The position numbers and the translations under genes are program-made. Shown here piece after piece: positions 3,858 through 64,000 of a stretch of 64,000 bases of DNA (positions are counted from its first letter, which is position 1; every line of letters begins with the position of its first letter). Source of the DNA: Owenia fusiformis. Its lineage: Eukaryota; Annelida; Polychaeta; Sabellida; Oweniidae. The stretch covers positions 23,317,936-23,381,935 of the forward strand of contig CAIIXF020000006.1 in NCBI GenBank assembly GCA_903813345.2. Reading direction: 5' to 3'. Under the pieces are notes generated by a model, which worked only from the letters and a program-made list of their open reading frames with translations, made no database searches and had not been told where the DNA came from.

Positions 3858-4529
3858 TCACAATGACTTGTCACAATAATCAGGTATGTCAAATATGCTG
3901 AAGTCCTTGATTCCAGCTTTGTAGTTGGACGTTGTTGTCGTCATTAATATGTCTAGTTCCCCTTGAGGAGAATCGATTTTTCCAGACAAAGTGCTTGTTA
4001 CTGGAATGCAGCTTTCGGTCATTGTGAAATAAGCTTTCACATCATATGTTTCACCTTTGAAAGGAGCTTTCCATGACTGCACCTTCAGACTCCCGCCAAG
4101 TACTTCTTCTCCCAGAAATTCGGCATCATCCGGAATACAGCGCTCTGGTTTAGGGAAGTATACAGGTCCAACTTGACAGGTTTTTTGTTTTTTGTTCATT
4201 GTATACTGTTTTTTGGCCTTAAAGTCTTGGATGACAGTTAGCACTGAGAGAACTCCATTTGTGACAATATTTGCATGAACTGCGACTTTTTCTTTTTTCC
4301 CATCATACCAAATATGGCCCACAAGCTCAATCTCTACAGGGTAATGGTTGACCACTAAACCTTGAACCTGGCTGATATTGGCTTGCCATAGATATGGTGT
4401 ACAGCATTTTGGTGGAGGTTTTTCGTAAAGGACTAAATTCTCATTGCGACGATTTGTTGGGTTTGCAGAAGTATATGTGGTGAGGATCAGTCCAAGTAGA
4501 ACAAACAGCATCAAGTTGATCACTGTCAT
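3858..4529 (-). CDS. Ependymin-related secreted protein, copy B (complete)
   Basis: A complete 223-residue ependymin-related protein lies in one coding exon. I place the start at 4529-4527 (MTVINLMLF) rather than at the longer frame to 4565. A pyrimidine-rich TTTTTTAG acceptor lies one base before this ATG, and copy A has the same design. Residues 1-22 are a signal peptide. Cysteines occur at 42-43, then in TCQVGP, ERCIPDDAEF and ESCIPV, with a last one in the C-terminal DYCDKSL. There is an NIS glycosylation sequon. The length fits the secreted EPDR/ependymin family (about 200-230 residues). It lies head-to-tail with copy A, both on the minus strand. Proteins of this family act outside the cell; the ligand here is not known. 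Confidence 0.9.
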   Translation of the reverse strand: MTVINLMLFVLLGLILTTYTSANPTNRRNENLVLYEKPPPKCCTPYLWQANISQVQGLVVNHYPVEIELVGHIWYDGKKEKVAVHANIVTNGVLSVLTVIQDFKAKKQYTMNKKQKTCQVGPVYFPKPERCIPDDAEFLGEEVLGGSLKVQSWKAPFKGETYDVKAYFTMTESCIPVTSTLSGKIDSPQGELDILMTTTTSNYKAGIKDFSIFDIPDYCDKSL

Positions 4530-5410
4530 ACTAAAAAACAGTTGAGAATAATCGGTACAGTACATATGTATAAATGAATTAAATCATAGGTATCAGGGGG
4601 GTTCGAACCCCCCCCCCCCCCTGGCCAAAATTTCTTCCAAAATCATGCAGTTTTCCCCATTCTGACTTTTTTTGGGTGATTTTTGGCCAAATTTACCAAA
4701 GTGAACCCCCCCTATAATTTTTGGGAAAAGTGAACCCCCCCTTGGAAAATTCTGGCTACGGGCCTGAGTATTTAATAAACTCTTTAGAGAATAATACTTC
4801 CATTTCTACATGAAACTGCCTTCACCATGGTCAAAGTTATTGAAATAAAACAAAAATATGAACAAGATTGTGAATTAAACAAATATACACTGTAGAATGA
4901 ATAATAAGAAATGACAATGGTTGATTAAAGAAGAATTTCATTTGATATTATTTTATGTACAGTATTTCCTATTATTGGGAATATGCAATTCATAAGTCCC
5001 TCATTTAAGGACGAGGTACAATGTCAAAACAGAAACACTGCTGCATGTCAAATAACCAGTCCTTCATGTGAACTAGGCCTTTATGTTCACTTTGTTTAAA
5101 TGTTAGTATAATCTATAGTTTGCCTTAACCTCATATTCAACACTAGGTTAATATGAAAAATGCTCAATACAAGGTACAGTACAGTACTATAGCACTAAAT
5201 GTATGTATTGGTGAATAAAAGTTAATAAATGATTTATCTCTATTCCAATATGCAGTTTATTCAGACATGTATTCTTGGCATTGAAAATTCTTACCTTATA
5301 TTTTCTGCGATTGTGTATGTGATATGACTTCCTTGTTGTAGATCTTATACTTGCTTGGCTGTATTTACACATAAACCTGACTTGGTTGTAATTTAGCATG
5401 TATTTATAGT
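4530..5410 (-). promoter_or_regulatory. TATA box, non-coding exon 1 and intron 1 of ependymin copy B
   Basis: On the minus strand TATAAATA lies at 5408-5401, preceded by AACTCAAATGTTTG, which copy A also has. A short exon would run from about 5375 to 5295 and ends AAG|GTAAGAA. The intron 5294-4531 ends TTTTTTAG before T-ATG. The matching layout of copy A is the main evidence, and the start site is inferred. Confidence 0.6.
4591..4766 (+). mobile_element. MITE remnant of the 'GGCCCGTAGCCAG' family
   Basis: The right end carries CTGGCTACGGGCCTG, the same terminal sequence as the element at 18939-19128. The interior has GGGGGGTTC, a poly-C run, CTGGCCAAAATTTCTTCC and AAATCATGCAG, again shared. 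The left terminal repeat is degenerate. It lies in the intron of ependymin copy B. Confidence 0.6.
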
Positions 5411-7281: not shown

Positions 7282-9933
7282 CAGGGTGTCAAATAAATAT
7301 GTTCTTCCCTTGATTTCAAAAGTGTGAACTTTTGTGCATAAAAGTGCATCTAGTTGAGCTAGTCATCTCAAACTTGTAGTGGGGTTGCTCCATGAAGTTT
7401 AGTTTTAATGTGCTAGTCTATAAAGAACAATACAGATTAATTTATTTATTTCATGATAATATAACAATGGAATATACAAAGCATGTGCACTGGACACCCT
7501 TAGTAATTGGGCGTATCAGTGCATATATCAAAATTTATTGCAGAGCAATCACAAAACATATAATATATAACATTATCACATGATTAGGAGTGTCTAAGCA
7601 TTTTGATTGGTCAATTATCTAAATTGTTTAGATGCAATACAGAAACTTTGAAGTCTGGATATAAATAATTAATTTAAATGGAATGTGATCTTATATAGTA
7701 TTTCCATCCATCTTTTCCAAAAGGTCCTTTTTAATGTTGTGTTTAAAAGAATTCAAAGTTTTACATGTTCGAAATACAATTGGCAAAGAATTCCATAAAA
7801 TAGCACCAGAATATGTCACTGATCTTTTTGTCAATTCAGTTTTTATTTTGCTGGGGCGTATGTTATGAAACTGTCTTGTAGTACGATTACCAACATTATG
7901 ATTGTGCATGTATGTAAAGTAGTTTTTGAAAAGATAAGCAGGAAAATTTGATGGTTCCTTGACACAATTATACATAAATTTTGATTTCTCTAACCTGTGA
8001 ATGTCAAAAATTGTTAAGATTTTCATTTCCCTAAATAATGGTACACTAGGTTGTTGATAATCTGCATTACAAATCAGTCTAACAACTTTTTTCTGAAGAT
8101 TAAGTAATGGTGTAAGTAATGATTTGTTGGCATTACCCCATATGATGTTGCAATACGAAATATGTGAATAAACAAGTGAATAGTAAATGTCTAACAATGC
8201 ATGTCTTGATAGTTTATTTCTTACTTTGAAAAGAATGCCTATTATTTTTGAAATTTTTGAAACAATATATTCAGTATGCCTATTCCATTTCAGATTTGCA
8301 TCAATGATTACACCAAGAAAATTTATATTGTTAACTCTTTCAATCTGGTTATCACCAATATATACCTTGTAGTGATGGCTATTTATATTATTAAGTCTTG
8401 ATTTAGTAAATAACATATATTTAGTTTTCTCTATATTGAGTGAAAGCTTTTTGTTTTTTAGCCAGTTGATTATACATTTTATTTCAGTGTTTGCCCTCAA
8501 GTAAAGATTATCTAAGTTGTCATCTTCTAGAGAAATAGTTGTGTCATCTGCAAAAATAACTAATTTTATCATATTGGTAACATTAAATATATCATTTATA
8601 TACAATGTGAAGAGGACTGGTCCCAAAACAGATCCTTGGGGGACGCCACAATGTAAATAATGCTCTTCATCAGAGTATGAACCTGATATGAAAGTTTTTA
8701 ATGGTCGATCTTTTAAGTAACTTTTGAACCAATTTAACACTACTCCACGGAAACCTAACAGTTCAAGTTTATTTAATAATATTGTATGGTCAATCGTATC
8801 AAACGCTTTTGATAGGTTAAATACAATCCTAGAATATGCTTATTATTATCCATTGAAAACCGAATTTGTTCCAGAAAAGTTAAAAGAGCCATGTATGTTG
8901 AGTTGTTTTCTTTGAATCCAAATTGTTTTTCATTCATTAACTTATTCAGTCAATATGGTACAACGAAAATGGGACTTCTGCGCATGTTAAATTTTTTCGT
9001 CAAAACTCAACTTTTGTTCAAGTTGATACGATTGTCTTTCGAACTAGAGACTTACCTCATTCGAAAGATCATAAAAGACTTTATCTATACTGAAAATCTT
9101 AGATCCAAACATAGTAGAATACGCCGTCAGTCCGCATTTGATTTTTTGAAGTGAGTTTCGTAGATCGTCAGATTTCTCCGACTGATATCGGGTTATCTCA
9201 AACTGGTTCGTTTATAAATACAAATTTGTTTACCGTTGTAAGGCGCATGCGCAAAATTGATTTATAAACCTTATTGGTTGATGGTTTTTCTCCTGCGCAT
9301 GCGTGAAGTCTGATGAACACTTATGACCAAGACCGGAGCAAACATTACTAGCTCTTGAACGAAATTCCAAGATTCAGGTCATTTCGCCGTGTTTGCTAAG
9401 CGTGTATACGTGAATGACAAGCTGTTTTGAGTAGATCGGGTACCTGTTTTAGACACAACATTGATTTAGCTTGACATTGATGTGCACATTGGCACTTTTG
9501 AGCATGTTAATACAAGTTTTTACACTCTTAGCACGAGACGGGTTTTCGAAAAATCTGTTATCTGATTCACTCGATTATCGTATGGATATGTATTTCTGCT
9601 GACATTTCAACACCACATCACATAGAATTACGATGCAGAATGATAATAAAACACAAAACAACTACTAAATTCCACTTGTTATTTCACAGGAGGTAAAAAT
9701 GCAAACTGCCTAAATTCTTTGTAAGGGTCGTCAGACATCGGATTGGCCGCCATATTTGAAATGAAAATATCACTAAATAGAGGTCTGCGCATGCCTCAAC
9801 ATTTCGACTGTATTATTTTTGATAAATTTAGAAATTCTTGAGTGCATTACTTTTTCAATGCAGATAAAAAAAAGTTATGCAACATTATGTGGATGTTAAA
9901 GCTAAGGGGAGAACATATTTATTTGACACCCTG
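7282..9933. mobile_element. Mariner-type TIR element, non-autonomous, carrying a LINE insertion
   Basis: The ends are CAGGGTGTCAAATAAATATG (7282) and the inverted form CATATTTATTTGACACCCTG (to 9933), with an inverted repeat of about 30 bp. Each end is flanked by TA (7280-7281, 9934-9935), as Tc1/mariner elements are. I see no transposase. About 1.5 kb of the interior is the LINE at 7437-8950. The part 8950-9900 has no coding capacity. Confidence 0.75.
7437..8950 (-). mobile_element. 5'-truncated LINE with reverse transcriptase domain
   Basis: The frame ending at 7691 encodes the second half of a CR1/Jockey-type reverse transcriptase: [10 protein letters not shown] (motif 3), [20 protein letters not shown], then FADDT at the active site, then the thumb region with [12 protein letters not shown] and AILWNSLP. 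The frame is open past 8740 (that codon is GTG, not a start) to about 8843. Upstream, QFGFKENNSTYMALL is read in another frame, so there is a frameshift near 8830. The 5' break is at about 8950. The 3' UTR ends in an AAAT-rich tail at about 7440. It is a non-functional insertion in the mariner-type element. Confidence 0.85.
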
Positions 9934-13000: not shown

Positions 13001-16000
13001 TTTGAACATGTTTTAAGATTGTGTTGAATAAAATCAGTGAAGCTTGTTGAAAAGATTTCATTATGACGGGTGCATTGAGGACACCACCAGGGCAAGCTTT
13101 GATATTGGGATCTAACCTTTCTCATTTGAGGCCTTATAATAGATAAAAGTAATATTATGGGGTCAGGTAAGGGTAGTAGTGTCATGTTTTTGGTACCTCA
13201 AAAATTCAGTAAATCAGTTGGCTATGTTTCAAATTAATGTTTTAGGGATGGTCCATGCAGTGTAGTTCTTTTGTGAAGATGAAACAGTTTTGGTAATACC
13301 CCCCCCCCCATGATGTAATGGGTCATCCTTAGTGTAGGTGTAGAATGCATAAAGATTGAAATAGTCCCCCCCCCCCCCGAGTAACTCTATGGTAGAGCAC
13401 TTGGCACTAGGTTGAATAACTAGTTCAGGCAATACCAATGTGCTTGTTGAGTTTAAATGGACACATGTGATATTCCTTGTTGGTTTTTCATGCTTCATGC
13501 TGTACCTAGTGAAAAAAACAACTGGTCCGTATCAAAAATAACCAGTGGACCAGTCCTTAGGGCATACACTGATGTAAACCCAAGTCAGAATATACTGCTC
13601 AGTGCTCACCCTTATTTGATGGTAAACAAAATAAAATAAAAAATGATGGATATATAGTTCTTTCTGTATTAATCTACTTTTTTCTCACTATACATGTATG
13701 TAATACACCTGTTTGTTTATATTTTCTATGCATTTATATGATAACCATTTTTAAAGATTTCAGGTCTCAAATTAGTCTTGAATTCAGTCTCAAATTAACA
13801 TACATATATATTGCAGTCCTTATGCCCCCCCCCTCTCTAACACAGACACATGGTTGAATTAGAAAAGCATGGGGGGAATGATCAAAGACTGGATGCAAGA
13901 CAAAATCTAGCATTCTTTAAATTTTTAACAATCACAAAAATAATGTTTTATTGTTTTAGTAAATAATCCACAAATTGTGGACATATGATGGTGATATTCC
14001 TTGGTCTTTTATGTTTACAAACATAAAATATGACTGTAAAATATCCAAACCAGACAATGCTATTCATCCTCATTTGGTGGTAAACAAAATAAAAGACAAA
14101 AGTGCCAATCTTTTTGATTAATGTTAGACAAATGATAGTTAATAGATAGATTTAAAAAAAAAATCTGTCACTTGTAATTCTTAGTCCTCTATTCTGGGAT
14201 ATTTCCCGATATGTTTTTTTTAGGAATGTCTATATCATGCAGCAATTTATGCGTCCTCTAAAAGAGGTCCCCAAAAGTGATTGTTAGCAGAGTCATCAGC
14301 AAATATATCATAAAGATACTCCTCAGCAGCCGTCATAAATTCTCCACGATTTATAAGTCCATTACTGTCATCATCAATGTAAGCAAAAACAGCATCGGCA
14401 AATGTTGCATCGATTCCCAAGACGGCATAGAAACTTTTGAAATTCTCCAAAGAGATCTGTCCAGTTTTTTTTACATCCATTGCGTCGTAGTAGAGCTTGT
14501 ATTGATCTTCAAACCATGGCTTGAACCTGTCATCATGGATGAACTTGAAATTGTTAAGAATCATTTCTTCTTCAGTCATCTGAGTTTTTGATGTGCTGAA
14601 GTCATCCCAGAGGAAGGTGAATATTCTGTGTACTCTGTTGGCTTCCTCTCCCGATAGGTTACCTGGGAATAAGATTGGTTAAATACTATTTGTCAGGCAT
14701 TTCATTTGCATCAGGCAACAGCACTGGTGACTTTCCCCAGTTGTTTGAAACAGAATCATTATTATTTTGAGTGGCACCTGTTTCCATAATGTTTTGATTG
14801 TTAAAATTATAATTTCCATTGATGTTTCCTGTTGTTTTCATTTGTTTAATCAGATATTCTAATAAAAATACATAGTAAGTAGTTTGCAAACCGGGCCACT
14901 GGGATTCCAAAGTGCCCCAGTTTTTATAAAGGCAGCACATTTACATAATATTTTTAAATTATTACAAGTGATCCTGGATCCATCTCTTTTTAATATTCTT
15001 TCATTTTTTGGCTAACATAATGAATAACTAACTTACCAGCCTTTATGAGTCTCTCTGCTATTAAGATGTGATCAGCCTTTGTTAAAACTCCATCGCCATC
15101 AGCATCAAAGCGTTTGAACTGAGTTCTCATTTTCTTCACCCAATACTTGGGCAAATCCTCTACCTATAAAACAATAATATGGTAAAAGCTGTAGATCCGA
15201 ACACCTCTGTTATCTTACAGGGGCGTCAGAAGGATTTGTCAAGGGTGGGGGCAACTTTTGGATGGGTTGTGCGTGAAGAGTGGATCGGGGGCATGCCCCC
15301 AGAAAATTTTCAAATTTAGACCCTCTCTGGTGCATTCTGAACATATCTCAGCACAATATTCCCAATAATAAAAATAAGAAAAAATGTTTTAGAAAACTAG
15401 CTTGACTTTGACTAAAAAACTTTGATTTTTACTATAATATACATTTTGCACTCAAAGTAGCCTATTTACATACTGTATGTGTTCCTGAGAAACTATGATA
15501 TAGAAATAAATATAATATGAGAAATGAGATCTTCTATGCTTGATGTAGACTAGATTATGACACAGTATCATTTCTGTCATTATTACACTTTGACTTTAAC
15601 TAGCTCCAGAGCTTTCAATTCTAGGCTCAGTTTCAGATCTAAAAAGATCTGGGAATAGGAGGGGGCAGTCGCCCCCAACGCCCTCCCCCTTCCATGCCAA
15701 TGTCTTAACACCTCAGTGTGAAAAGTCTCTTTCTCAGAAATTTTTCTCATTTTTTTAATCTTCCCTGTACTTCTATGTTAACAAACTATGTAACAACTTT
15801 TGTGAATCCAAATGAACTTGGTTATCCATGATAATACATGTAATTTCTTATCTTAAAATATCTTGTAAGGCATTGTTTCTGATACTGTTTGAATGCAGAT
15901 TGCTTGGGTGTTCAGATAATCCTAGATTTTATTTGTTAATTTCAAACGCAAACGATTTTATTTGGACTTTATTTTTTGTAGTTTCAAAACAAGTGTCGTT

Positions 16001-23150: not shown

Positions 23151-25110
23151 GTATTTTTGATTAACAAATCCAGGGACAAATAACCTCCTTAGATGTAAAT
23201 TAATGTATTACTTAACAGACTAACATTGCTTAAATCACAATGACCAACCATGGGATAATAATTATATATATTTCTTGTAATGTTTTTTTTAACTTAATTT
23301 CACCATTGTTATTACTTTGAATTCTTCCAATACTTGGTCTTCATCACATTTAAAGATGCTGTTACGTACAGTTCATTGTTCAAACACGGAGAAAAAGTAA
23401 TTTTAAAATACATCTACCATAAATGTTAAAAAACATGTTGTATTTCTTTTTTGTATTATACATTAAGATAACTTAAACTGATGAGACTTGAAATGACATA
23501 TCTATTAGGAGACATGTCTCTCTCTCTACCAAGAACGTATATGGACAGATCTCTTACGTACATTCCCAAGTATCCTGAAACATGTAATAAGACAAATAGA
23601 ATGTGAAATGAATGGCATCTATTCTTTAACTGCAATTCTGATTGGCTGCCAGGGTTTCGATGGATCTTTTCTGATTGGTTAAGGCTAGATCAAATAATTG
23701 GTTCTTATCTATTGAATAGGGTTGTTTCACAAGGGAGTTGCATCTGATAATTCTGCCTATTGATATGTAGGCCTACTCTTTGATTGATTCATTATTTAAA
23801 CAGATTAGATAATTAATTGCCGTGTGGATTATATCAAATATAAAAGTGTTGGTTTAACAACTGAGAAAACTCTTAATGGCTGAAACAAACCAGAGTATGT
23901 ACACAGAAATGAGAAAACACAAGCATAAATCAAAAGTATAAATAAATGAAGAGAAAAAACCAATGTACGCCTAAGTTGAAGATCAAGATCAACATGCTGG
24001 CACAAGGGGTTAGAAATAGAAATACAGATTTATCATAGAATTATCATTCAAATCTGAGATGAATATGTTTGTTCCTAAATTCCTCAGTGTAATATACACA
24101 CATTCATTTTTTGTGTTAACATTGTTCTACCATTGTTTTTTGAATTCCTCACTTTGACATCAATTTTTGACCTATTGTAATAGAGAGATTACTAGTAAAT
24201 TAAATTTCCTGAAATATAGAAAATAGAGTCAACATCCATTTACATTATCAAATTTTCTTTCGTTTCGGGCTTGGAGAAAGCCCCATATTTACCTTTGCAA
24301 GAACATAAAACCTGTCAAACACCATTGTTACACTTTTATATGTTCATTTGATATTAAGTCATTTGGTCTTGGGAGTCTGAAATGTTCCACTAACAGAGGT
24401 GTTCCACTTCTAGAGGTGTTTCACTTCTAAAGGTGTTCTACTTTACAGGTTTCACTGTACAGTATATCCTTTACAAGGCAGAGAGCATCAGACTGCATTT
24501 CAACATTAAATAACAACTTATCAATTGAAAAGAACCAATGTTTACTTTATAAATGTCTTGTTTACAATTGATCGGAATATGATAGGTAATGCTATCTGCA
24601 TATTAAATAAAAAAAGAATTTCAACTCTTACAAAGTGCATAGGCCTACATTGTATCACCAAAGAAATTCCTAAGAATAGGAAAAGTTTTTTTTAGCTTTT
24701 TGAGTGGGATAATTTCAAGTTTCAACTAATAATTCCAACTTACTGATTTGGAAATATTCAATTTTTATCAACTTATTTACCAAGGGATATTGATTTTAGC
24801 ATTGCTTCATTACATATATTATTTTTATCATAAATAGATGATGCATCAGATTCAGAAAAGATTACAAGATAAACAAAACATCCATGATATAAGTACAAGC
24901 ATTTATTTTATAACATATTAACTATGCTTAAGATGTAAAACATTTCTACTTTTAGTTTACTTTTGAAATACGTACACCATGCATGGACATTGGATATTGT
25001 TAGGAGTGATTTCTGCTGCATTGACATTTGATTATATACACGCACAAGAAAGGGAACCAGGTAAATAAAAGTATTCTGATACCCATCATGTATTTCTGTC
25101 TCACCAGACA
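23151..25110. other. Intergenic DNA, no gene recognised
   Basis: AT-rich sequence with a few short GTGTTCCACTTCTAGAG-type repeats near 24400. I found no exon with convincing borders or any RNA gene here. The 5' exon(s) of the next gene, including its signal peptide, could lie in this stretch but I could not identify them. Confidence 0.4.
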
Positions 25111-25114
25111 GCAC

Positions 25115-25240
25115 TTGTGTGATATTATAGCCTCCAAGGGGTGACATATTGTTCTCCAACTTTTTTCTGGACGGCGTTTCGCGTTTGTAACATTCGTTCG
25201 GGGTCAGTAATAATTTGTGGTGACATTTTGTCATGCAAAT
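25115..25240 (+). repeat. Dispersed repeat (family 'TTATAGTCTCCAAC'), copy 3
   Basis: GTGATATTATAGCCTCCAAG, then GTTCTCCAACTTTTTTCTGG and GTGACATTTTGTCATGCAAA are diverged forms of the same family. Confidence 0.4.
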
Positions 25241-25484
25241 GATTTATCATTACTCAGATAGGCTCGGGTTATTTAAGCTCTCTCAGTTGCTAACGAAACT
25301 AGTTACATAGTTGAACTTCCTTTCTGAGATTCTGATACTCAGACCATCTCTGCAATGCACAAGAAGGAAACTGAGAGAAGGCTGTGATATCTCACGATGG
25401 TTGCAACAGTAAAAATCACTAATATTGGCTATCTTGTTAGTTGGCTTTTCCTCAGGCTTTTCATAGCAATTTTATGTCACCAAC

Positions 25485-25565
25485 ACAAATGGTGACATAA
25501 TGTTATAGTCTCAAACTGTTGGAACAAATGGAAGGTGGTGACATTTTGCATGTTAATGTTATGTT
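25485..25565 (+). repeat. Dispersed repeat (family 'TTATAGTCTCCAAC'), copy 4
   Basis: ATAATGTTATAGTCTCAAAC, then GGAAGGTGGTGACATTTTGC and ATGTTAATG match the ends of the other copies. The middle is deleted. Confidence 0.45.
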
Positions 25566-25822
25566 TTGTTTAAAGGGGCCTTTATAGTTTACTATTTTAA
25601 TGACCGATGTTCAGGAAATGTTTTTGTTTCAACATATTTTTGTGCATCTCTAGAAATAGTTGAACTAAATAAAAAAGTATACAATCCTCATTTCAGAATT
25701 CAAAAAGAGACAAAATTACACCGAAACGGGGTTTACATTACCTTTTGCAATATCAAAATAATTTAAGATGGTGTAAAACATCAGTAGTTTGATAATCCTT
25801 ACTTTGTACACTGTGCATGTAG

Positions 25823-28800
25823 TTGATGGTGGGTGGTCAAATTGGAACAGTTTCTGGGCCGGATGTAACAGACAATGTGGAGATAATGGAACGCAGATAC
25901 GCAAACGAAAATGTACTAAACCTGCTCCTAAATATGGCGGTAAGCCGTGTGAAGGTCTGTCATATGAGAGGCGACCGTGCAACAGATTCCCTTGTGTACC
26001 AGGTAAGCGCCCTTCAAGAATTGTATCCTATAAATTAGTACGAGCCTAAATAACATGAATAAAATAGGTAGTCTCGCTTCAAGACTTGTGACCTCCGGTT
26101 GGATCACAAGGCCTTGAAGCTAGACTAAAAATGGGATGAAGATGGGGATCGTTCTGGCGATTTGACCCAAAATAGAAAAATAAACCAGCCTTAAAACGCT
26201 CTAATTTACTCTCGCGTTTTATCAATTTGGTTATATTTCGTTATAGTTTGTTGCCGCTATAATTTCTGCTTCTACAGTACTAATTATTACAAATTGTAAA
26301 AATAGCATCATGGGCGTTTTAATGAAAGATATACTTGATTCCTGGTATGTTTTCACCCAATACATGCTCATGGACGTGGCTTCGAATATATAATAGAGAG
26401 GTTTCGCAAAACGTTTTTTAGCTCCACGGATCCGTATCCGTAACGTATTTATCAGATTTATGCGTAGTCAGTTCAATTTATACGTGAAATGATACGGAAA
26501 ACACGAAAAATGAGGCTTTTGTACGTTGGTCATTTACGTATCCGATTTTACCCTTCGATTATATTGTTTTTAGTTCTAAAGGTATTACTATATGAACAAC
26601 CACAATGTGCTGTGTATAATTTGACTAAAATTTGGTGAATGAATTTGTTTATTGTTTGAAATAAATTGAGTTTTTCAAATAGTATGTTCAATTTATTTTA
26701 CACTGTATGGAATGGTATTGCAATAATTACAGTGTACATGTTTCGCACAACGTTTTAGCTACCCGTATCAAAATCCGTAACGCATCGATGGAGTAAAAGT
26801 GTATTCAATACGTTTGTGATACCAACAGCAATACCGAAAGTACGTAAACTAACACTTTCTGTGCGTAGTTGTCTCCGTATCTATTTTGTCCTTCAAATCT
26901 TGATAAATTTTTCCCTAAATGTATAATTTTAGTAACACACATATGTTATCATGTGTGTCGTGCTAATTTTGATGAAGTAATAACCTTATCTGCCGATAAA
27001 TTTGATTATAAGCGATGGGCCTGCAATTTTTACAAATAAAGCTTTAGTCACATTTGCTAATAGGCAGATGTAAGGTCTATCGTTTCTGGGGTCAATAGTA
27101 ATACCGTAGTCAATTTCTTAGGGACATCAAACCAACGGTTAGCAGCTAGGCCACCTGAATATATATTTTGTGCCTTAAGTCACGCTCCGAATTCATATAG
27201 AGCAGGGTCTTGGGCTTAGTTTGAGTATAGTAGCTTGTTCCTGACCTCGACAATGAATGTGCTATTGGGTCTAAAGATGGCGCCCCGAATCAATCTTGCC
27301 CGTATCCAGCTTGTGGCAAGGGGGGGGGGGGGCTTTTTTGGCTTAAAACTCCCGAGAAGTGCTCAGTATGATGAAAAACTGAATGATTTTCAGGTAGCTT
27401 CTTCCGGGTGGTATGACTTGAACACGCATCAAGTCATGCGATCTATGTCAAATAGTAAGCGGCCTCGTTTGGGGGTCCAGGGAGACTAGTGCCCTAAAGT
27501 TTAGTGTCCAAGCTTCCCCGAACCACCGTATCATTTCCTATTTTCATTTTTGTAAATACAGGCCTGACATCCAGATCCTGTAACGGATCTTCTCTCTTAC
27601 ATATGAGTCACGGTAGGGGCCCCAGATGTTCCTAACTCTTGGGTAGTGGTCCATGATGTGTTCTTCATTAGCAGCTTTGTGATGATAGGGAAGGGGGGAG
27701 GTTGTAATTCAAGTACATATTCAGTAGATATCGGGTTGTCCCCGATTGTTTTGAGCGGTTGTCTCCAGTTGGAATAACTTAGTTGAGTAAATCGGTATCA
27801 ACGTTTCGTTGTGGTTTATTGGTTGTGCCTGATTGTGTTTTGATGGGTTGAGTAAATCGATTGAGTATTTGACTAAGCCTGGTTGTGTAATGGTGGGTTA
27901 GTGTCAAGTAGGTATAGGTTTTGCCGAAATGTGTTGTGTACGTTTGAGACTAGGTTCTCTTTTGATGGTTGTTAGTCTGGTGATTTAGTATCGGGTTGTG
28001 TCCCATTGTGTTATGTTAATCTTATAATGGGTTGTTTTCTCTTGTGAATATGTTCTGTTGGTTGGCTAGCTGGTTGTGGCTAGTCGGGTGAGGTATCTTG
28101 TTTTGTCTGATTGTGTTGTGTGATTGGCGTTGTCTCCAATTGGGTTAAGTTAGTTGTGTATCTCGGTATTACAATTTTAATGTGTTTTTTTGCCTGTGCC
28201 TGATTTTGCTTTGATTGTTTGGTTTTGGGTTTTGAAAAATTGTGTTGTGTTACTTGAACAATGGGCTGTGTTTGCTTTTGTTGGTTTAACATTGGGTTGT
28301 GCCAAATTGTGTGGTGATAATTTCACAGTTCGATGTGTTTTCATGGTTGTTAGTTTAGTTGTGTTTTATTGGTTGTGCCTGATTGTGTTTTTATTGTTTA
28401 GTGTTGGATTGTGCACAATGGTGTTGAGTTAATTCAACACTTGGTTGTGGTTGTCTTTGTTGTCTTATTGGGTTGTGACATATTGTGTTAATCTGACAGT
28501 TGGTTGTGTTTTGGTGGTTGTAAGTCAGGTTGCGCCATGCTGGCTTTGGTGCCGGGTTATGCTATATTGCGTTCTGAGTATATTGACACTGGGTTATGTT
28601 CTATTGTACTGTTGCATGATTGGTGATCTAGGTTGTGTTTGGTTGTAATAGGTTATATATGTCGAGTTGTGGGCTGTGTCCGATCAGGCTGTGGTGTTTA
28701 TTGGGATAAGAAACAAATGGCCGGTTTAGGGTAATTTGTTGTTGGTTTATCAGTTGATTCTATGTAGACCCCAAAGGAGATATAGGGTATTATGATGGTG

Positions 28801-31800
28801 AGATATTCAACTGGCATGTTAGGCGTTAGCTTCGCGTCGTTCTCTGATGAGCTGGTCCCATGTTGTTCAAAGAATTCAAGAAAAACAATGCTAATTTATC
28901 TTTTTACATAATATATTTTTTGTTGATTTCTCATACAAAACATACTTTTATTGCATAACTGATATATTTGTGTCGCTTTCTATGATCAAATATGTTACTT
29001 TGTTCCCCTCCTTAGTTTATATGAGGCATGGGTTTTCAACTAAAGCCCATGTATGAGGAAAGGGGGGGGGGTGGCTTATGTGAAAACGTATGGTTTCCGA
29101 ATGCCTTGGCCTTGCCCAAGTCGCTATTTTTTTTTTATCTTGAATTATTACCAAAATATACAGCTGCAAAAACATGAAATTAAAGGTCCATGTGCAGTAT
29201 GGCAAGTGATTTTAGAAATGTTTACGCATTTTGTGGCATAATGCAGTCACTGCACGTCACTTAATGACCACTATTCAGCCTATTTGTTTTCAAACCCTTA
29301 AATATTCCCAAAAGAATAATTTGACACTGAATTGGTTATTGTAAACCGAGAAATAATCTTTTCTGGCCTAAAGGATATTCTTCATTTTGAAATTGATGTC
29401 ATGAAATTAATAAATGACACCTTAGGGATGAAAGGGTTAATATGTATTTTTGCACTCACCAAAATTACTTTTGGAGTTGTGATTCTGAAAGCTGACACTC
29501 CCAATGGTGTTTTGAAATCTAAGTGCAGATGAAGCCTTTTATTTGACCCTAGTTTACATTTCTATTAAACACGGATTGAGATGCGTTTATAATTACGTAC
29601 TTCAAAAAACGAACTGCGAAACGAAAATTATCGATATACGTATCCGTAAACGTAACGAGATACGGATGCGGATACGTTTTAGCTAATTCGTTTTGCGAAA
29701 CCTCTCTAATTTCTCACTGGGCGACTCGCATGAAGCAGTTGATTTGCTATCATTTCAAATTCCATTTAGAAAACTTCAATGATGAAAAATCGATTCTAAC
29801 TTGTTGCTTCCCTTTAACGTTTAAGCCTACGTCTCTTCGTGTTTTTCAAGTTGATGGTCAATGGGGTCCATGGGTTGACTACCCAAGATGCAGCAAGTCA
29901 TGTAATGGGGGAACAGAGGGTAGATACAGGGTCTGTAATAGACCTCGTCCAAAATTAGGGGGCAAACAATGTGAAGGTCCTAGATCCGAGTTGACGCCGT
30001 GCAACACGCAACCTTGCCCCCCGAGTAAGTAAATCGGAAACACTCAACCGTGCCACGTAACTAAATATTTCTGCATACATTCTACAGAAACATGCAAGTG
30101 ATTTTTTACTTTATTGTGATGCTTTTCTGATATTTCATTCGCGCTACGATTCTCTTTATCAAATGAATGTGCTGATGATTGTGCTGACAATTGTGCCGAC
30201 GGTTGTGCCGACGGTTGTGCCGATTGTGTTTTAGTTGACGGTGGTTGGAGTTCATGGACTAACCCTGACCTAGCAATGTGTTCTGTGTCGTGTGGTGGAG
30301 GCTGGAAGACTAGAAAACGTTGGTGTGTCAAACCTCGTCCTTTGAATGGAGGTCAGAAATGCCAAGGAGAAGGACGAGAAACCCTTTCCTGTAACACTCA
30401 GCCATGTGAAGAGCCCAAAAGACGAAGTAGCGTATTATTCAACGTTTCTTAAATAAATTGAATTTGTGATGTTACATAAATTCATCTTTATCTAGTCTTG
30501 CGTCGAATGGGATTAAATGGGGGGGGGAGTGGGATTGAACTCGAAAAAATTGATGCAAGATTAAACATTTGTCACAAACAGTAACCGTACAATTGGTATG
30601 TTTCAGCAATATCCAACGAGTGTATCGAGTGTCTGTGCAGAGTAAGTGTGCTTTATTTCTTAACTCGAGCTCATTTAATTATAATTTTTGTGAAGTAGGC
30701 TATATTGGGCGGGGGGTCACAGTCTTGAACCAGGACTAATAATTTCGCTTAATTTGGAAAGGAAAATTGATTGACTTCTACGACTAGACAATAACATTAT
30801 ACCATTAAATATGGAACAAGTAATAACCCGAGGTAATAATAATCAAACAGTAACTATGTGCTGTAAAACACACGGGAGATAAGCAAAACGAGGGCGAAGC
30901 CACGGACTGCGACTAGCGTAACTTTACACCGCAGCCCAGCGCCAAAATGGAGGGACATCCGTCAGTGCCTTCTGCTTCTTCCGACAAAATAGAGAAATCC
31001 AGGTATTTTAAATGCTAACGTAGTGTCTAATCGGTGACCAAAATATTACTCTGTATCTACTGTTGGTCTGTAGATAAGAAAATAAGCAGTTGTCCAGATC
31101 AAGCTAAAACATTAGCAAAGTTCTGATTTTACCTGTTAAATATGTGCATATTATTTAATTTACTATACATTTGAAAGGAGTTTTAACACGTTTCTGATAT
31201 CTAAAGGTTAGTTGAGGCTACGAGTATAATTCGTGAAAATGATTTGATAATAGAATGTGTTCATGAGGAGAAAATTAGATTCAAACTTCGCATTCATAGT
31301 GGACGCAGTCCAGTAAACAAAGCTATTTCAACAACGCAACACAGCCTCCATTGATATTCTAAGCAACGCAGTCCAACCGCGAACACGAAATACATAAGAT
31401 AGTGTAAACTATATTCCTACGCTATTATTGTTTCAGGAAAAGAAACTCAGCATCCAGATTATCATTCAAAGTTACGTTGATTAACATATATTTTTTACCT
31501 GAATCAATGTCCCAAATTGCTATATTTTATCGTTTAAGACCTAGAAATATGGCAATTCAATAGCGTATTTGGCAGAACAGTCGAGCGCAAGATGACAACG
31601 TAATATGTTTATTACAAACCAATTTGTGGATAGGGTTAAATATATAGATAATTGGATAGTGGTGAGACTTTTTATAAGAAGTAGAAATGCGAAACAATTA
31701 ACTTTTTGATGATGCAATAAAAGCTGTTGGGGAAGGGTACATTAACTAGTATTTAAGATATCAGGAAAATATCAAATAATTGGAGAGTTGGTGAGTTAAT

Positions 31801-34139
31801 GTAATTTTGGATGATCTTTCCAACAGTCCATCAATATTGCTAGCTACCATAGATTCATGATTTCAGCTGTATTTGACAGCTTGTATATATTTGCAGAATG
31901 GATTGAGACACGATGTAGGTCTATTAAATAGCCCTTTATATTCAATTTTGTCCAAAGTTGCTCCATTTCGGCCACACCTGTACACACATTGTGCTATCTA
32001 CCTTTGGCTGTGATTGCGTTCAGCTTCAGATATAAAGCAACACTGAGTCGCGGACTGCGTTGGGCAGATGGATGGACTGCGACTATTATAAATTCCAATG
32101 TTCTATGTAATTGTACGTTTTCCGCTTACCAAATATCACACGAAGATGTAATTGTAACAACAGAACATGAATAATTATATTAATTCGATGTCATTTCTGA
32201 TTCTTTTGTTTAAATCGGTATATTAGGGACAAATATTGACAAAATTACATTTTTTGTGGCAGATTTCGAATTCATTTGTGTTCATGCTAAACTATTGGAC
32301 AGCCGAGTACCAAGAATGCCATATGCAGGTGGAGTAGCCTATGAATATGTTGATCACCGACTGGAACATACTAGCTATTCTGTAGAATATCCAAACCAAT
32401 AATCTACCCCAAATCCTAACATGCCTTCCAAATTAAGTTTGGACTTACCGCCATTGTTCAGCTATAATGCGTTGTAACCTCGTTTTGAATTACGCGAGTC
32501 GCAGTCCGTCGCTTCGCCCTCGTTTTGCCATCCCCCGTGAAACAATAACCAACGTGATATATCAAAAAATTCTCTTGATATTGGGCTCAGCAGATGTTTT
32601 CAATTTCGGTAATCATTTTCTATTGATCTAGGGGCCTTGGGACCAGAAAAATTGGGGCTGTGAGGCTGCGGCTGCTGCTAATAACAAATATAGGATCAGT
32701 ACTTCCTTTTATATCGACTGCGGGAAACCTGGTTGGAGTAAGTTTTTATATTGTTGGAAACATTTAGGGTTATAGCTTAGGGCTATTCGGGGGGAGGGGA
32801 TCGAGACAAAACATTTTTTCGGGGTACGATGAAGCGCATTTCGTCAAACAGTGTACGCAGATTCTAGTTACAAAAGACGAAGCTCTCTTTTAAGAAGTGA
32901 AGTCGAACGAATGCAAAGGGTAAGTTTTCCGGGTGTTTATATAACAAATCAACAGCCCTTGTTTCCTTAGGAGGGGGGATATTTCTTTTATGGACTTGTT
33001 GGCACATTCAATAACAGTGATAAGAATGAAATAGTGCAACGACACAACACGCACAACACGCACATCACGCACAATCACTTATCTCAATGACTAAACTCGA
33101 TCGCAAGTCTCAAAGGCATCTGGCCGAGACACACCTCTGTGACCATTGCTAAGACAATGGATAAGGACAAAATAGAAGATTATACGACATCAAATCGACA
33201 TTAGGGATTACACCCAGGGTATGACACAATCAAATTATATGCACATAGACATTCACAAACGGAAGAAATAAACTTGTCATAAACAAAAATAATTGAATTG
33301 CCCATTGAATGCCCATGATAAAATCTAATTTTATACAACAATTAGTCTTGTATCGAATCCCGTAACCATTTTGTGTGTGTATAGGAGAGACGGAATGTGT
33401 GGGCATGTGATATATGAGGCCTACATGAACGGAATCTTGATGAAAGACTAATAATATTTAACTTTGATTTGAAGATTATGAAGAATGCGTTGCCAATGAG
33501 GAGTGTTCAAAACATTGTATACGTCGCTACATGTGGAAGTATGTCCCAAGGAAGTGTTACCCAAACTTCAATGCCCGCGAGGCACCCGAATGTGAAGACT
33601 ATGCTAGGTTAGTATAGTAATACCCGTAACAGCTCCAGTGGCGGATCTGAAAGCTAACAATGGGGGGGGGGGGCACATATCAAGTCATCAAGAATGTTTA
33701 CGCACTAGTTGAAAATCACGAGACTACATTTTTTGACTGGGCTATTTAAAAATGTTGATTTCTTATCCAAACGATCGCACGAATTCATTTGTATTTCATG
33801 GCATTTTGTTTATCGGATCGCATCCTAATATCCACTGATTGTGCATCTTGCCTCCACTATTACTTCTTTTCACTATTACTTCTTCTCTTCAATGATCAAT
33901 CACAAGAAATTGAATGCAATGAGCTTGTTTGATCGCCATTTTCTGATTTTTACAGGTTCCATTACTATGGCCCTGCTGGGTGTGGTACTGCAGGTATGGC
34001 TCGGGTGAACAAATTTGTACGGAGAGTCAAAAGGTGTGTTACTGGAGACGAAAATGCATCTCTTAGACCGTGGGAGGGCCACGATATTCCCTTCAAGAAC
34101 CCAAAACCAATCCGTAGGACGACGACGCCAAGGAAATAA
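25823..34139 (+). CDS. Three TSP1 repeats fused to an i-type lysozyme-like domain (5' end not found)
   Basis: Exons are 25823-26002, 29851-30024, 30235-30426, 30607-30641, 32632-32737, 33475-33607 and 33956-34139 (stop TAA). All introns have AG/GT borders and the phases agree. Each of the first three exons is one complete thrombospondin type-1 repeat starting VDG, with WxxW, CSxSC, RxRxC and GGxxC, and each is a symmetric phase 1-1 exon. The rest encodes an i-type lysozyme (destabilase) domain: ECIECLCR, FYIDCGKPGW, ECSKHCIRRYM, CEDYARFHYYGPAGCG, then a basic tail. Across the fourth/fifth exon join the text is CLCRGPWDQKNWGC, with the usual C-x-C-x10-C spacing. The Glu of the ESGC motif and the following catalytic Asp are not there, and two cysteines of this region are missing. 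It is probably secreted. An inactive, binding or regulatory domain is my inference. The donor at 30426 (GTAGCG) is weak. If unused, the protein stops at 30450 after the third TSP1. Confidence 0.8.
26003..26394. other. Intron DNA before the TIR element, nothing recognised
   Basis: This is the first part of the 3.8-kb intron between TSP1 exons 1 and 2. I see no further TSP1 exon. Confidence 0.4.
26395..29707. mobile_element. 3.3-kb TIR element in the TSP1 intron
   Basis: AGAGAGGTTTCGCAAAACG at 26395 is inverted at the right end (CGTTTTGCGAAACCTCTCT to 29707). Further in, both ends hold TTTTAGCT and several ACGTATCCG/CGGATACGT units. AAT flanks both sides. A related internal end (GTTTCGCACAACGTTTTAGC) is at about 26740. 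No protein is encoded. Inside are a GT-rich block (27720-28740), a poly-G-containing MITE relic (about 27300-27420) and at about 29100 one end of the Mutator-like family seen at 54165 (CCTTGCCCAAGTCG). Confidence 0.75.
27720..28740 (+). repeat. 1-kb GT-rich, strand-asymmetric degenerate repeat
   Basis: The plus strand is rich in G and T, with GGTTGTG or GATTGTG every 20-35 bases (for example TTATTGGTTGTGCCTGATTG). It reads as a decayed tandem repeat of about 30 bp. Open frames here on either strand are by-products of composition. Confidence 0.65.
30871..32539. mobile_element. 1.7-kb TIR element in the lysozyme-domain intron
   Basis: CACGGGAGATAAGCAAAACG, then AGGGCGAAGCCACGGACTGC at the left is repeated inverted at the right (GCAGTCCGTCGCTTCGCCCT, then CGTTTTGCCATCCCCCGTG), an inverted repeat of about 50 bp. 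AAACA flanks both sides, a likely 5-bp target duplication. GGACTGCG motifs recur inside. No transposase is seen. Confidence 0.8.
32738..33474. other. Intron between lysozyme-domain exons
   Basis: Nothing coding is seen. A 47-base stretch at 32876-32922 recurs with one difference at 54820-54866 (see findings). An ACACGCACATCACGCACAAT microsatellite lies at about 33050. Confidence 0.4.
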
Positions 34140-34164: not shown

Positions 34165-34170
34165 AATAAA
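34165..34170 (+). terminator. Polyadenylation signal of the TSP1-lysozyme gene
   Basis: AATAAA lies 26 bases after the stop codon and about 40 bases before the TTAA-flanked hairpin element, so the 3' UTR is short. Confidence 0.65.
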
Positions 34171-41055: not shown

Positions 41056-43017
41056 CAGGGTGATCCAGAAGTAACGTCAAAGATGTTGTAATTTCAAAAG
41101 TATTCATCAGATCTTCATGAAATTTGGTATACATGTACCCACAACATTTCTGAGTTACCATCTCAAAGATTGGAATTCAATCATTTCATTGGTTGAAATT
41201 ATGGTTGCTATAGTAACCCGATATCGCGTAACCCGGGGCAAATTACTTAACGTGTAATGCGTAATCTCAAAATATCAACAAGATCTGAAATTGTTATATC
41301 CTCAACATTTTATTTCACAACAATATAAATCATACTATTGCACAGTTACTAATAATAGTTCATTCTACATAATTGCCACCATTTGCAACACATTTCTCAT
41401 GTCTGGATACCCATTCCTTGAACACAGAATTAAATCCATTAGAACTCATTCCTTGTAGGGCTAGTACTACGGCATTTTTCAATTCCTCACAGGATTGAAA
41501 ATTATTTCCACTAAGGTTTCTTTTTAGTTCCCCATACAAATAAAAGTCACTGGGGGCAAGATCAGGTGAATAAGGGGCATGTTCAAGTTGTTGAAATCCA
41601 AGTGTTTGGACTGTGTTGCTGGTCAGGATTGCAGTGTGCGTAGGGGCATTGTCCCAATGCAAGATAAACTGCTGCAGATGTCCGGGACGCTTTTTCCTCA
41701 GGGAACGTTGAAGATCACGCTTCAGAACCTGAAAAACAAATGTTTAATGGTTGTTAAACCAGTTGTTTCATTGATTGGATTTGGATTTGAATCATGGCCA
41801 TGGAGTTATAATTATATTGACAGTGAACAACATTTAAATACTTTAATTTAAAAATAAAATTCACAGTATGATGTATTATTAGAACAAATGATATCTTACC
41901 TTTGCAATGTAAACGGCATTAATTCTCTGGCCAATGGGAACAAAATGGGTTAACACCATTCCTCTAATGTCAAAGAATGTCACAACCATTTGTTTCTTTT
42001 GTGGAATTCCTGGTACTATTTTAGGCTTGGTTGGTGTTGGGGAGTTGTCATGTTTCCACGATGAACTTTGTTGCGTGGTCTCTGGGATGTAGAATGATAG
42101 CAATGATTCGTCACTCGTAATGATCTTGTTAAGAAAGTCATCTCCATCTCTCCGATATTTTGCAAGAAAGTCCCTTGAAGCCTTAACACGCCGGTCTTTC
42201 TGCTCCTGTGTCAAGTCATGCGGCACCCATTTAGCAGACACCTTCTTTAACAGACAGTTCTTTGTCAGTATCCGTTGCACAGTCCCATAGCTCAGATCGT
42301 GTTTTTCAGCCAATTCTCTGATAGAAATTTGCCTATTGTCCATAACATCAGCTTCAATTGCTTTGATGGTTTGATCATCGAATGACGACACTGGCCTGCC
42401 TCCTCGCTGCTTGTCTACCACTTCATCATATCCACTGGAATACTTGTTAAACCACCTGTAAATGTTTCTCTCAGCAATGGCAGCTTTACCATATGCCTTC
42501 TTTATCTGTCTTATAGTCTCTTTTACACCTTTCCCCAACTTTACACAGAACTTAATGTTTGTTCTTTGCTCTATTTTACTCTGACTTGGCGCCATCTTGA
42601 ATTGGGTGGGTTAGTGTCCTTGGTCATGTTAGTATTTGTCATGGATGATGGAAGCAATTCAAAGAAATTGAAAGCTTTTTATGAATGCCTATTGTGACAT
42701 CACAACTATTACATATTTGTTACCATGGCAACAAATATAAAAATCATAGAAAACAAACAATGAACATTTTCAAATGTTACTGACTTTTTAAATTAGAGAA
42801 ATTCACAAAAACGTTATGGTTTCTCTTCAATTTGCCCCGGGTTACGCGATATCGGGTTACTATAGCAACCATAATTTCAACCAATGAAATGATTGAATTC
42901 CAATCTTTGAGATGGTAACTCAGAAATGTTGTGGGTACATGTATACCAAATTTCATGAAGATCTGATGAATACTTTTGAAATTACAATGTCTTTGACGTT
43001 ACTTCTGGATCACCCTG
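41056..43017 (-). mobile_element. Complete mariner element with 189-bp inverted repeats
   Basis: CAGGGTGATCCAGAAGTAAC at 41056 is inverted at 43017. The inverted repeats run 41056-41244 and 42829-43017, 189 bp each and nearly identical. TA flanks both ends (41054-41055, 43018-43019). The transposase gene lies between them on the minus strand with no frameshift seen, so the insertion looks recent. Confidence 0.93.
41360..42595 (-). CDS. Mariner transposase, two exons, 354 residues
   Basis: Exon 1 is 42595-41900 (232 codons) and exon 2 is 41728-41360. The 171-bp intron has a good donor (AAAG|GTAAGATATC) and acceptor (TTTGTTTTTCAG). Splicing joins NAVYIAK to VLKRDLQRSL in phase 0 and restores a full-length mariner transposase. 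Without splicing the frame stops a few codons past the donor. An N-terminal helix-turn-helix (about residues 10-55), a second with ISIRELAEKHDLSYGTVQ, the GGRP linker and WVPHDLT are present. The catalytic triad is complete: TSDES, HWDNAPTH, and SPDLAPSDFYL, with 34 residues between the last two Asp (DD34D). It catalyses cut-and-paste transposition at TA sites. A spliced mariner gene is unusual. Confidence 0.9.
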
Positions 43018-58800: not shown

Positions 58801-60784
58801 CTTTTAGGCTATAGAGAAATGAGAATAAATATGACAATTACCCGATAGTTCTGTTTTTTAAGACATTCTAATATGGCCAATCTAGACATTGTCAAAATAG
58901 TTTGATTCTCTCTGGAGCTGTTTTGAGAGCCATGCATTTCTACTGTTATTTAACCTAGATATCTAATATTACAAGTGAATTATATTTGGCTTCATGGCTG
59001 GCAAGAAATCAAAATAATCAGGGAAATTATGACTATGTGATAGTTCTGTTTTATAAGAGGCCTTAAAATTGCCAATCTAGCCATTTGGTTTAAAAACATA
59101 GTGTGATTCTCTCTGGGGCAGATTTGAAGCCCAGGTATCTCCTTTGTCATTTAAGCTAGATGCCTAATATCACAGGTGAATAATATTTAGCTATAAGGTT
59201 AGCAAAAATTGAAAATAGAAATGACAACTACCTAATAATTCTGCTTTATAAGACATCTTAACATGGCCAGTCTAGCCACTTACATTGAAATCATAATGTG
59301 AATCTCTCATGAAGATACTATGATTCTATCTGGGGCTGTTTTGAGGGTCACATGTCTATTATATTAGTTGAGCTGGATGTCTAATATAACAAGTGAATAA
59401 TATTTGGCTTTTAGACTAACATGAAATGAAAATAAAAGTGACAACTACCTGATACTTATGATATGTAAGATGTATCAACATGGCCAATCTAGCCTTTTAC
59501 ATTATATAACATGCAGTAATCCTCCCTGGAGCTGTTTTGGAAGGCATGTGTATGGTTTATTAGTGAGACTAGAGGTCTATTATTACAGCTCAATAATATT
59601 TGACTAGAAGACACATTGTCAACTACTAATAGGAATGATTTGGTTGACTCTAAGCATGTCTTTTTGAGTCATTTTCCTCAAAAAAGTAATTACTAGTACT
59701 AGTATTTTATTTCATTGGAAATTATGTATTATGTTAATTTTAAGCTGGATGACTTCGTCTTAAATATGTATTCAATATATGGCTGAAATCAATGTGACCC
59801 TCATTTCTGTTAATAATTTATCATGATCTACCCTTGACACGAACCTCGGTAAACATTAATTGAACCTTAATTGTCCCTTAAGTCCACCTTAATTTGCCCT
59901 TAAGTGCACCTTAATTATCCCTTGAGTGCATGTATAATTTCCCTAAGTTTCCCTAATATTCCCATTGATTCACACCAGCCAACCATAACTTCCCCTATCA
60001 TTCGATATTACTTATAGAAAATGGGATTCACTGACTGCTTAGGTAATTTAATGATTTCTACTTGAACCCCTTGTTAGGAATCCCTAATACCATCACACTA
60101 GATTTGTACTCCCTTGTACTGTTTTGAGGAACCTGTATTTCTTCCAATATATGTGCTAAGGGTCTAATATTTAAAGTAGTTAAAATTTGACTAGTTGGCA
60201 CAATGGAAATGAAAGCAGAAATTATAATTATTTGAAAATAATGAATTGTTTGACCTCTAAACATTGCCAATCTAAGCCCCTTGATAACATACTCTGATTC
60301 TCTCTGGAGCTATTTCAAGAGCCAGTAATCTCTTTTTTTTTATTAAAGCTAGATCTCTAATATAACAAGTGAATTATATTTGGCTTTTAGGCTATAGAGA
60401 AATGAGAATAAATATGACAATTACCCGATAGTTCTGTTCCAAAATATCTTTAAAGTTTCTTAAATTTAATTTATTTCATTGATGGCTGATGTGTTTCCAA
60501 ATCAGTAGCCTCCATATATCTTAAGTGTACATTCTAGAAATTAAGGGTAAACTAAGCCTGAACTAAACCTAGATACTAAACCCAAACTTGACCTAAATAT
60601 TCCCTAAAATCAACATCATGGGTTATTCATGGTTTTAATTTTAAAATTTAAGGGGAAGATAAGGTAAAAAATGGGTTAAGGTTAACATTAACCTTAATGT
60701 TAAGGTTTGTGGACAAATTAATCTTAAAATAACCCCAAATTTTCCTTAACTCAAGGGAAGTGCCCTAAACTTTTTTCCTAAGGG
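55894..60784. mobile_element. 4.9-kb non-autonomous TIR element inside the LINE
   Basis: CCCTTAGGAAAAAAGTTTAG, then GGCA at 55894 is inverted at 60784. TC flanks both sides (55892-55893, 60785-60786), or a 3-bp GGA on the other strand if one terminal base is counted differently. The outer ~200 bases at each end are rich in ACCTTAA/TTAAGGT. The interior has no coding capacity. It holds ~195-bp satellite-like units and a large direct duplication. The superfamily is unknown. Confidence 0.88.
56300..60288 (+). repeat. Internal duplication and ~195-bp tandem repeats of the 4.9-kb element
   Basis: 56300-57182 and 59406-60288 are nearly identical direct repeats, offset 3,106 bp, with a partial third form at about 58440-58700. 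Between them the block GGAGCTGTTTTGAGGGCC, then AAGCTAGAT, AATATAACAAGTGAATTATA, TTTGGCTTT and AACATGGCCAATCTAG recurs about every 190-200 bp (for example 57379, 57577, 57769, 57963, 58914, 59331). Frames of 70 codons at 56952 and 60058 on the minus strand are part of the duplication, not genes. Confidence 0.85.
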
Positions 60785-60786
60785 TC

Positions 60787-63700: not shown

Positions 63701-64000
63701 ATATTTAGAATCAGAATCTAGGAACTTAATTCCATTGTATAAGTCCTCTTTCACTACCATTCCAATCCCTCCCGATTTTCTGTTTGATAAGACTGTGCGG
63801 TTTTTCAATTTAAGTCTGTATCCATGTTGCATCAATACTTTATCCAGTCTTTCATCATCACTTTTATCGGTTTTAGTCTCATTTAGTATCACTATATCAC
63901 ATCGTTTAATAAATTCCATGGTTTCTGGGTAATTTAACTTATTGGCGAGACCACAAATATTGAGAAGTCCCACCTTAATTCCAGGTGTGGTTGTGTTTTC
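60787..64000 (-). CDS. LINE polyprotein: endonuclease and reverse transcriptase (open at right edge)
   Basis: The frame is open to 64000; the codon at 63973 is GTG, not a start. The endonuclease domain begins LNICGLANK and has ILNETKTD, LCLCGDFNAHTG and SDIHCGIEF. The reverse transcriptase has GKSAGIDGILNEYIK, NYRGITLLSCLGK, QSGFMPNQGC, VFVDFKQCFDKID, GLRTGEILSPLLF and the active site LMYADDTVILSD. The end NLPIEIG is followed in the genome by codons from the inserted TIR element and a stop at 60746. More than 1,070 codons without a stop or frameshift point to a young copy. The enzyme copies its own RNA into nicked target DNA. The exact clade is uncertain. Confidence 0.88.

Follow-up and report, generated by a model that had tools for sequence, protein, structure and literature searches.

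We asked whether a run of exons in the genome of the annelid Owenia fusiformis encodes one secreted protein in which TSP1 repeats are joined to an i-type lysozyme (destabilase) domain without its catalytic residues, and what such a protein might do. The window analysed here is a stretch of 64,000 nt (contig CAIIXF020000006.1, positions 23,317,936-23,381,935), whose own positions serve as coordinates below, and the genome searched comprises 498 million bases in 525 contigs.

Exons and domains of the gene

The window holds a real, well-formed gene on the forward strand. Seven exons with agreeing phases had been predicted between 25823 and 34139, and this layout was borne out, with AG/GT borders and a single frame on translation. 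Three of them are indeed symmetric phase 1-1 exons encoding one TSP1 repeat each, as judged from their phases and translation and from Pfam TSP_1, which matched the predicted protein in three stretches (E 5.3e-22). These are T1 (25823-26002), T2 (29851-30024, donor score 3.1) and T3 (30235-30426), the last of which is of phase 1-1 if its weak donor, A|GTAGCG, is used. The lysozyme domain is encoded by four exons, namely exon A (30607-30641, phase 1 to 0, reading ISNECIECLCR), identified by translation, phmmer and comparison with paralogs; exon B (32632-32737, phase 0 to 1), the counterpart of the catalytic exon by phmmer, paralogs and MAFFT; exon C1 (33475-33607, phase 1 to 2), identified by translation, Pfam and phmmer; and exon C2 (33956-34139), in which translation and Pfam place the end of the domain, a basic tail and the stop codon. 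An AATAAA 3' of the stop (34165-34170, forward strand) is a possible poly(A) signal. A short tandem repeat just 5' of T3 (30160-30234), open in the T3 frame and reading CADDCADNCADGCADGCADC, is probably intronic, and most of the T1-T2 intron is filled by a stretch with 20-nt perfect terminal inverted repeats (26394-29708), which is probably a mobile element.

We also propose a leader exon that was absent from the original gene model. It lies on the forward strand at 24979-25060, has 82 nt, ends in phase 1 and encodes MHGHWILLGVISAALTFDYIHAQEREP, a putative signal peptide by its composition and its donor score of 3.95. When both strands of the window were scanned for signal exons (an ATG, a phase-1 exon of about 46-124 nt, a donor score of at least 0.5 and a hydrophobic stretch), this was the one candidate on the forward strand, with four on the reverse strand. 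A separate leader for the lysozyme exons was sought under the same thresholds in 25061-30560, where no candidate was obtained, and no in-frame start lies directly 5' of exon A.

The profile searches that had been proposed as a check on the domain assignment matched both families. Pfam Destabilase (PF05497) was found downstream of the TSP1 repeats with E 8.9e-15 and a score of 55.4 bits (cut-off 26.2), covering positions 2-116 of the 116 in the profile, confirming the predicted i-type lysozyme domain; NCBIfam gave no match. A phmmer search against solved structures returned as the best match 8bbu (E 3.6e-17), which we take to be the leech destabilase. Among the eight matches listed with E of at most 1, the four with E < 0.001 were all lysozymes. 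The domain matches are far beyond chance. The TSP1 part contains 18 cysteines, with the six per repeat expected of TSP1 in three stretches, and has a pI of 9.31, together with three WxxW and two CxxSCxxG motifs, which in TSP1 repeats are usually sites of C-mannosylation and O-fucosylation, respectively. The lysozyme part with its tail has a pI of 9.02, and the lysozyme domain itself contains 12 cysteines.

Exon B and the catalytic residues

Residues are named here by the 8bbu numbering, which we take to fit that of PMC10126035. In leech destabilase, Glu34 and Asp46 form the muramidase dyad, a Ser51-His112-Glu34 triad has been proposed for the isopeptidase activity, a mobile loop (Gly44-Ser51) closes over the cleft, and all 14 cysteines are engaged in disulfides, according to the passages of PMC10126035 at hand. 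Exon B of the window encodes GPWDQKNWGCEAAAAANNKYRISTSFYIDCGKPGW, and the domain lacks Glu34, Asp46 and Ser51. No alignment version shows a Glu at 34 or an Asp at 46, and the predicted absence of the catalytic Glu and Asp, and with them of the muramidase dyad, thus holds in the phmmer and MAFFT alignments alike. From the proposed isopeptidase triad, the counterpart of His112 (in ARFH) is the sole member kept; the counterpart of Ser82 is kept as well.

We compared the locus with 14 i-type lysozyme copies from ten regions of the same genome, one gene of region L009 being left out as its exon B was not found. In a Destabilase family search of the genome, 15 exon matches exceeded the cut-off. The window's own domain, which is split over four exons, was not among them, and a search with the predicted protein gave seven matches, three of which are pieces of the window domain. 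In the paralogs, exon A ends in phase 0, C-x-C-x being followed immediately by GT in all 11 copies, and by reading it starts in phase 1 in nine of these (L003 and L008 are unclear), while exon B begins x-Glu-Gly-Cys, x-Ser-Gly-Cys or similar; in L004 and L005, A and B form one open stretch without an intron. Since exons A and B of the window share the phases and places of these paralog exons, the window exon B is the counterpart of the catalytic exon. Its length is 106 nt, as against 115 nt in ten of 13 paralog copies (nine bases before the first cysteine codon and 106 nt from there to the donor), the other three copies being different or unclear.

The original prediction named a missed exon between 30641 and 32632, supplying the catalytic motifs, as a finding that would overturn it. 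No such exon was found, and the catalytic loss stands. When the whole window was searched with the exon-B peptides of three types of paralog, only exon B itself was retrieved at E < 0.01. A missed catalytic exon is very unlikely, because the borders and phases of the paralogs' catalytic exon match 32632-32737 and the intron is mostly a repeated transposon. This element, of 1671 bases and bounded by terminal inverted repeats (30871-32541), fills most of the A-B intron (30642-32631), leaving about 319 nt outside it; it has many copies in the genome, and the long matches beyond the window's own are 95-98% identical (40 of 579 candidates scored).

Five of the 14 paralog copies retain Glu at its canonical place in the exon, and nine have another residue there: six have Ser, and one each has Asn, His or Met, the copy with Met having a Glu one residue earlier. 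The Asp is kept in every one of the 14. The window copy has neither residue in place, and in the MAFFT alignment its exon B carries two cysteines as against four in all 14 paralog copies. Region L007 (C77:11500-18500) holds a tandem array of four i-type lysozymes in which Ser stands in place of the catalytic Glu, and further copies without the catalytic Glu were noted in L006, L009 and L010. A paralog that keeps both Glu and Asp lies at C1:53.8 Mb.

The alignment of exon B is ambiguous between phmmer and MAFFT, and the catalytic loss holds under both placements. The Pro predicted at the Glu position appears in all four printed phmmer alignments, whereas MAFFT places a Trp there. Against bivalve lysozymes, phmmer aligns the WGC cysteine to the second cysteine of exon B, in line with the prediction, whereas MAFFT, with exon B alone and with the whole domain, aligns it to the first one and leaves a gap for the Asp stretch. 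The four phmmer alignments favour the originally predicted placement over that of MAFFT. Perhaps the whole disulfide-closed Asp loop has been lost from exon B. Against 8bbu, phmmer sets a Glu opposite the catalytic Asp46, and this pairing would suit a domain that is still an enzyme by means of other acidic residues of exon B, such as the first Asp of this exon or the Glu that follows WGC. We consider such an enzyme highly improbable, as Glu34 is without a counterpart in any alignment and the proposed serine nucleophile is missing too.

The alignment also bears on the disulfides. From the record of an oyster lysozyme, we take it that the second cysteine of C-x-C pairs with the one following Glu and that the next two cysteines pair with each other. 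Two cysteines of the region are missing, as predicted, and the further proposal that one disulfide was lost as a unit is doubtful and depends on the alignment. In the placement of the original prediction and of phmmer with the bivalve lysozymes, the missing residues are Cys36 and Cys52, each of them from a different bond by this pairing; in that of MAFFT they are Cys43 and Cys52, which make one bond with the Asp loop between them. Under the former placement, two bonds would be broken, leaving Cys31 and Cys43 free, perhaps to pair together. The 12 cysteines of the window domain are fewer than in its 14-cysteine relatives and lie inside the published range. Their number alone is not diagnostic, because the passages at hand report 12 for most i-type lysozymes of the planthopper Nilaparvata lugens (PMC3616906), 12 to 20 for those of mussels (PMC4755537) and ten for those of another bug (PMC11140134).

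Probable splicing of the TSP1 exons to the lysozyme exons

We then considered whether the two halves belong to one chain. In favour of one chain are the single leader candidate and the lack of an in-frame start directly 5' of exon A. All exons upstream of exon A end in phase 1, the phase that exon A needs, and the place of the TSP1 exons is taken in the paralogs by a phase-1 intron 5' of exon A. The join of T3 to the lysozyme exons through the donor at 30426 (GAA|GTAGCG) is not secure, because this donor scores -2.52, the lowest of the 30 donors compared by a generic donor matrix; the six other donors of the window score 2.09 to 8.08, and 23 paralog donors taken as homologous score -0.68 to 6.15. 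In addition, T3 is open in frame to a TAA (30450-30452) that is overlapped by an AATAAA (30452-30457). Because of this weak donor and the overlapped stop, T3 may serve as an alternative terminal exon; T2 would then be spliced in phase to the lysozyme exons, and TSP1 would still precede the lysozyme domain. A scan of 30430-30620 for bacterial-type promoters and terminators found nothing, which says little for an animal gene. In our judgement, which is not a computed value, a fusion of at least two TSP1 repeats to the lysozyme domain is quite probable, and the chances that T3 lies in the same chain as the lysozyme domain are about even.

The stop with its overlapping AATAAA and the weakest donor of the 30 would also agree with one leader serving two products, the first running from the leader through T1, T2 and T3 to the TAA at 30450-30452 and the second from the leader to exon A and an inactive lysozyme, the two never forming one chain. 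The phases would allow this, since the leader is in phase with exon A, like the other upstream exons. Such an arrangement is unlikely, as the T2 donor, which scores 3.1 and is in phase with exon A, would need to be barred from that splice, and as some 5.5 kb, with two good TSP1 exons in it, separates the leader from exon A.

As for the source of the repeats, a TSP1 search of the genome gave at least 144 matches (150 of 696 candidates scored). Among the matches listed, the best-scoring ones outside the window are 46-52% identical, and the repeats are therefore probably not a fresh copy. A second TSP1-lysozyme gene was not found: among the matches listed, with 150 of the 696 TSP1 candidates scored, no TSP1 lies within 1 Mb of a Destabilase match, and in the ten paralog regions no match to the TSP1 queries had an E below 0.03.

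Possible role and origin of the proposed fusion

The gene most likely makes a secreted protein of TSP1 repeats and a lysozyme-shaped domain without the cutting residues. To this extent, that is, for a secreted protein with TSP1 repeats, an i-type lysozyme domain and the loss of the active-site residues, the original interpretation holds at the level of sequence. The catalytic loss alone is not special, because the Glu is absent from nine of the 14 paralogs and the planthopper offers a precedent (PMC3616906, in the passages at hand). The proposed binding of a glycan or isopeptide by the lysozyme fold is weakened as well; for such binding, that of peptidoglycan included, there is no residue-level support, because the counterpart of the cleft-closing Gly44-Ser51 loop falls in the changed stretch, but peptidoglycan binding by the domain is possible. 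The pI values of 9.31 and 9.02, together with the motifs of the repeats, would fit binding to acidic glycans or surfaces. Overall, we favour as the best explanation, and as a fairly probable one, a secreted fusion of TSP1 repeats with a dead lysozyme that has an adhesive or matricellular role and arose by exon insertion.

The product would be one secreted, cysteine-rich protein of about 361 residues, with a signal peptide, two or three TSP1 repeats, a catalytically dead Destabilase domain and a short basic tail. The symmetric 1-1 TSP1 exons may have entered the phase-1 intron 5' of lysozyme exon A, where the matching borders are observed, and the lysozyme half would then have lost its catalytic residues and two cysteines, perhaps with the disulfide-closed Asp loop. 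The basic TSP1 repeats would hold matrix glycans or cell surfaces, an adhesive or matricellular role being most likely, and the lysozyme fold, kept by its remaining cysteines, would provide a cationic module for binding or scaffolding at the surfaces of microbes or of the host. An old antibacterial enzyme thus seems to have taken on a binding or structural role.

In a tree of the domain and its paralogs, for which L001 and L002 were entered without exon A (the likely exon A of L001 is in L011, and none was found for L002), the window domain forms the longest branch, with 2.13 changes per column. It joined L008 with 85/82 support, a placement that the program flagged as long branches meeting and that is not resolved. 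The branch length also fits relaxed constraint, and the lysozyme half may be decaying, with no function of its own, as the loss of the catalytic residues and two cysteines and the weak donor before this half would likewise suggest. We regard decay as quite unlikely, given that all four lysozyme exons are open with usable borders, that twelve cysteines remain, and that the bit score of the full-profile match is still more than double the cut-off.

In this genome, the catalytic Glu is already missing from most of the i-type lysozymes that were examined. In this setting, the protein might instead be a lineage-specific innate recognition or adhesion protein, with the stripped lysozyme as the ligand-binding end of a TSP1 stalk and with alternative splicing of T3 perhaps switching the lysozyme end on and off, a possibility that we raise tentatively and rate as not very likely.

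Compared with known systems, the window domain resembles leech destabilase, TjL (2DQA) and MlL (3AB6) in its near full-length profile match and its kept His112 and Ser82 counterparts, and the i-type lysozymes of its own genome in its exon A/B borders. It differs from i-type lysozymes and destabilases in having no Glu34, Asp46 or Ser51, two rather than four exon-B cysteines, TSP1 repeats in front and a basic tail. The SH3b-destabilase lysozymes of clitellate worms are similar in being i-type lysozymes with an extra N-terminal domain, but they carry SH3b in place of TSP1, and the alignment legends among the passages at hand mark their muramidase and isopeptidase residues (PMC11083476). In the i-type lysozymes of Nilaparvata lugens, Glu and Asp are likewise not conserved and most have twelve cysteines, but the passages at hand mention no TSP1, unlike the window protein; the same passages report second-hand a non-enzymatic antibacterial action of i-type lysozymes (PMC3616906). 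With extracellular TSP1-repeat proteins the window protein shares repeated basic TSP1 with WxxW and CxxSCxxG motifs, and it differs from them in its lysozyme-domain partner. The enzyme family is a known one, present here in a form that is unusual and apparently inactive, and, provided that the splicing is correct, its combination with TSP1 was not found in print in the literature searched.

If the fusion is expressed, an antibacterial enzyme family would have given rise to a binding or structural module by exon shuffling and changes in one catalytic exon. Graded stages can be compared directly within this one genome, from copies with Glu and Asp intact, through those with the Glu alone lost, to the window copy, with Glu, Asp and cysteines lost. 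A "lysozyme" annotation made from a domain match need not mean lytic activity.

Elsewhere in the window, all on the reverse strand, we noted an Ependymin-family gene (3861-4583, Pfam Ependymin), a neighbour of similar look (3-563) and an exon of an EF-hand protein (14250-14678), as well as two reverse-transcriptase ORFs and a Mos1-like transposase (60749-64000, 7694-8839 and 41882-42610).
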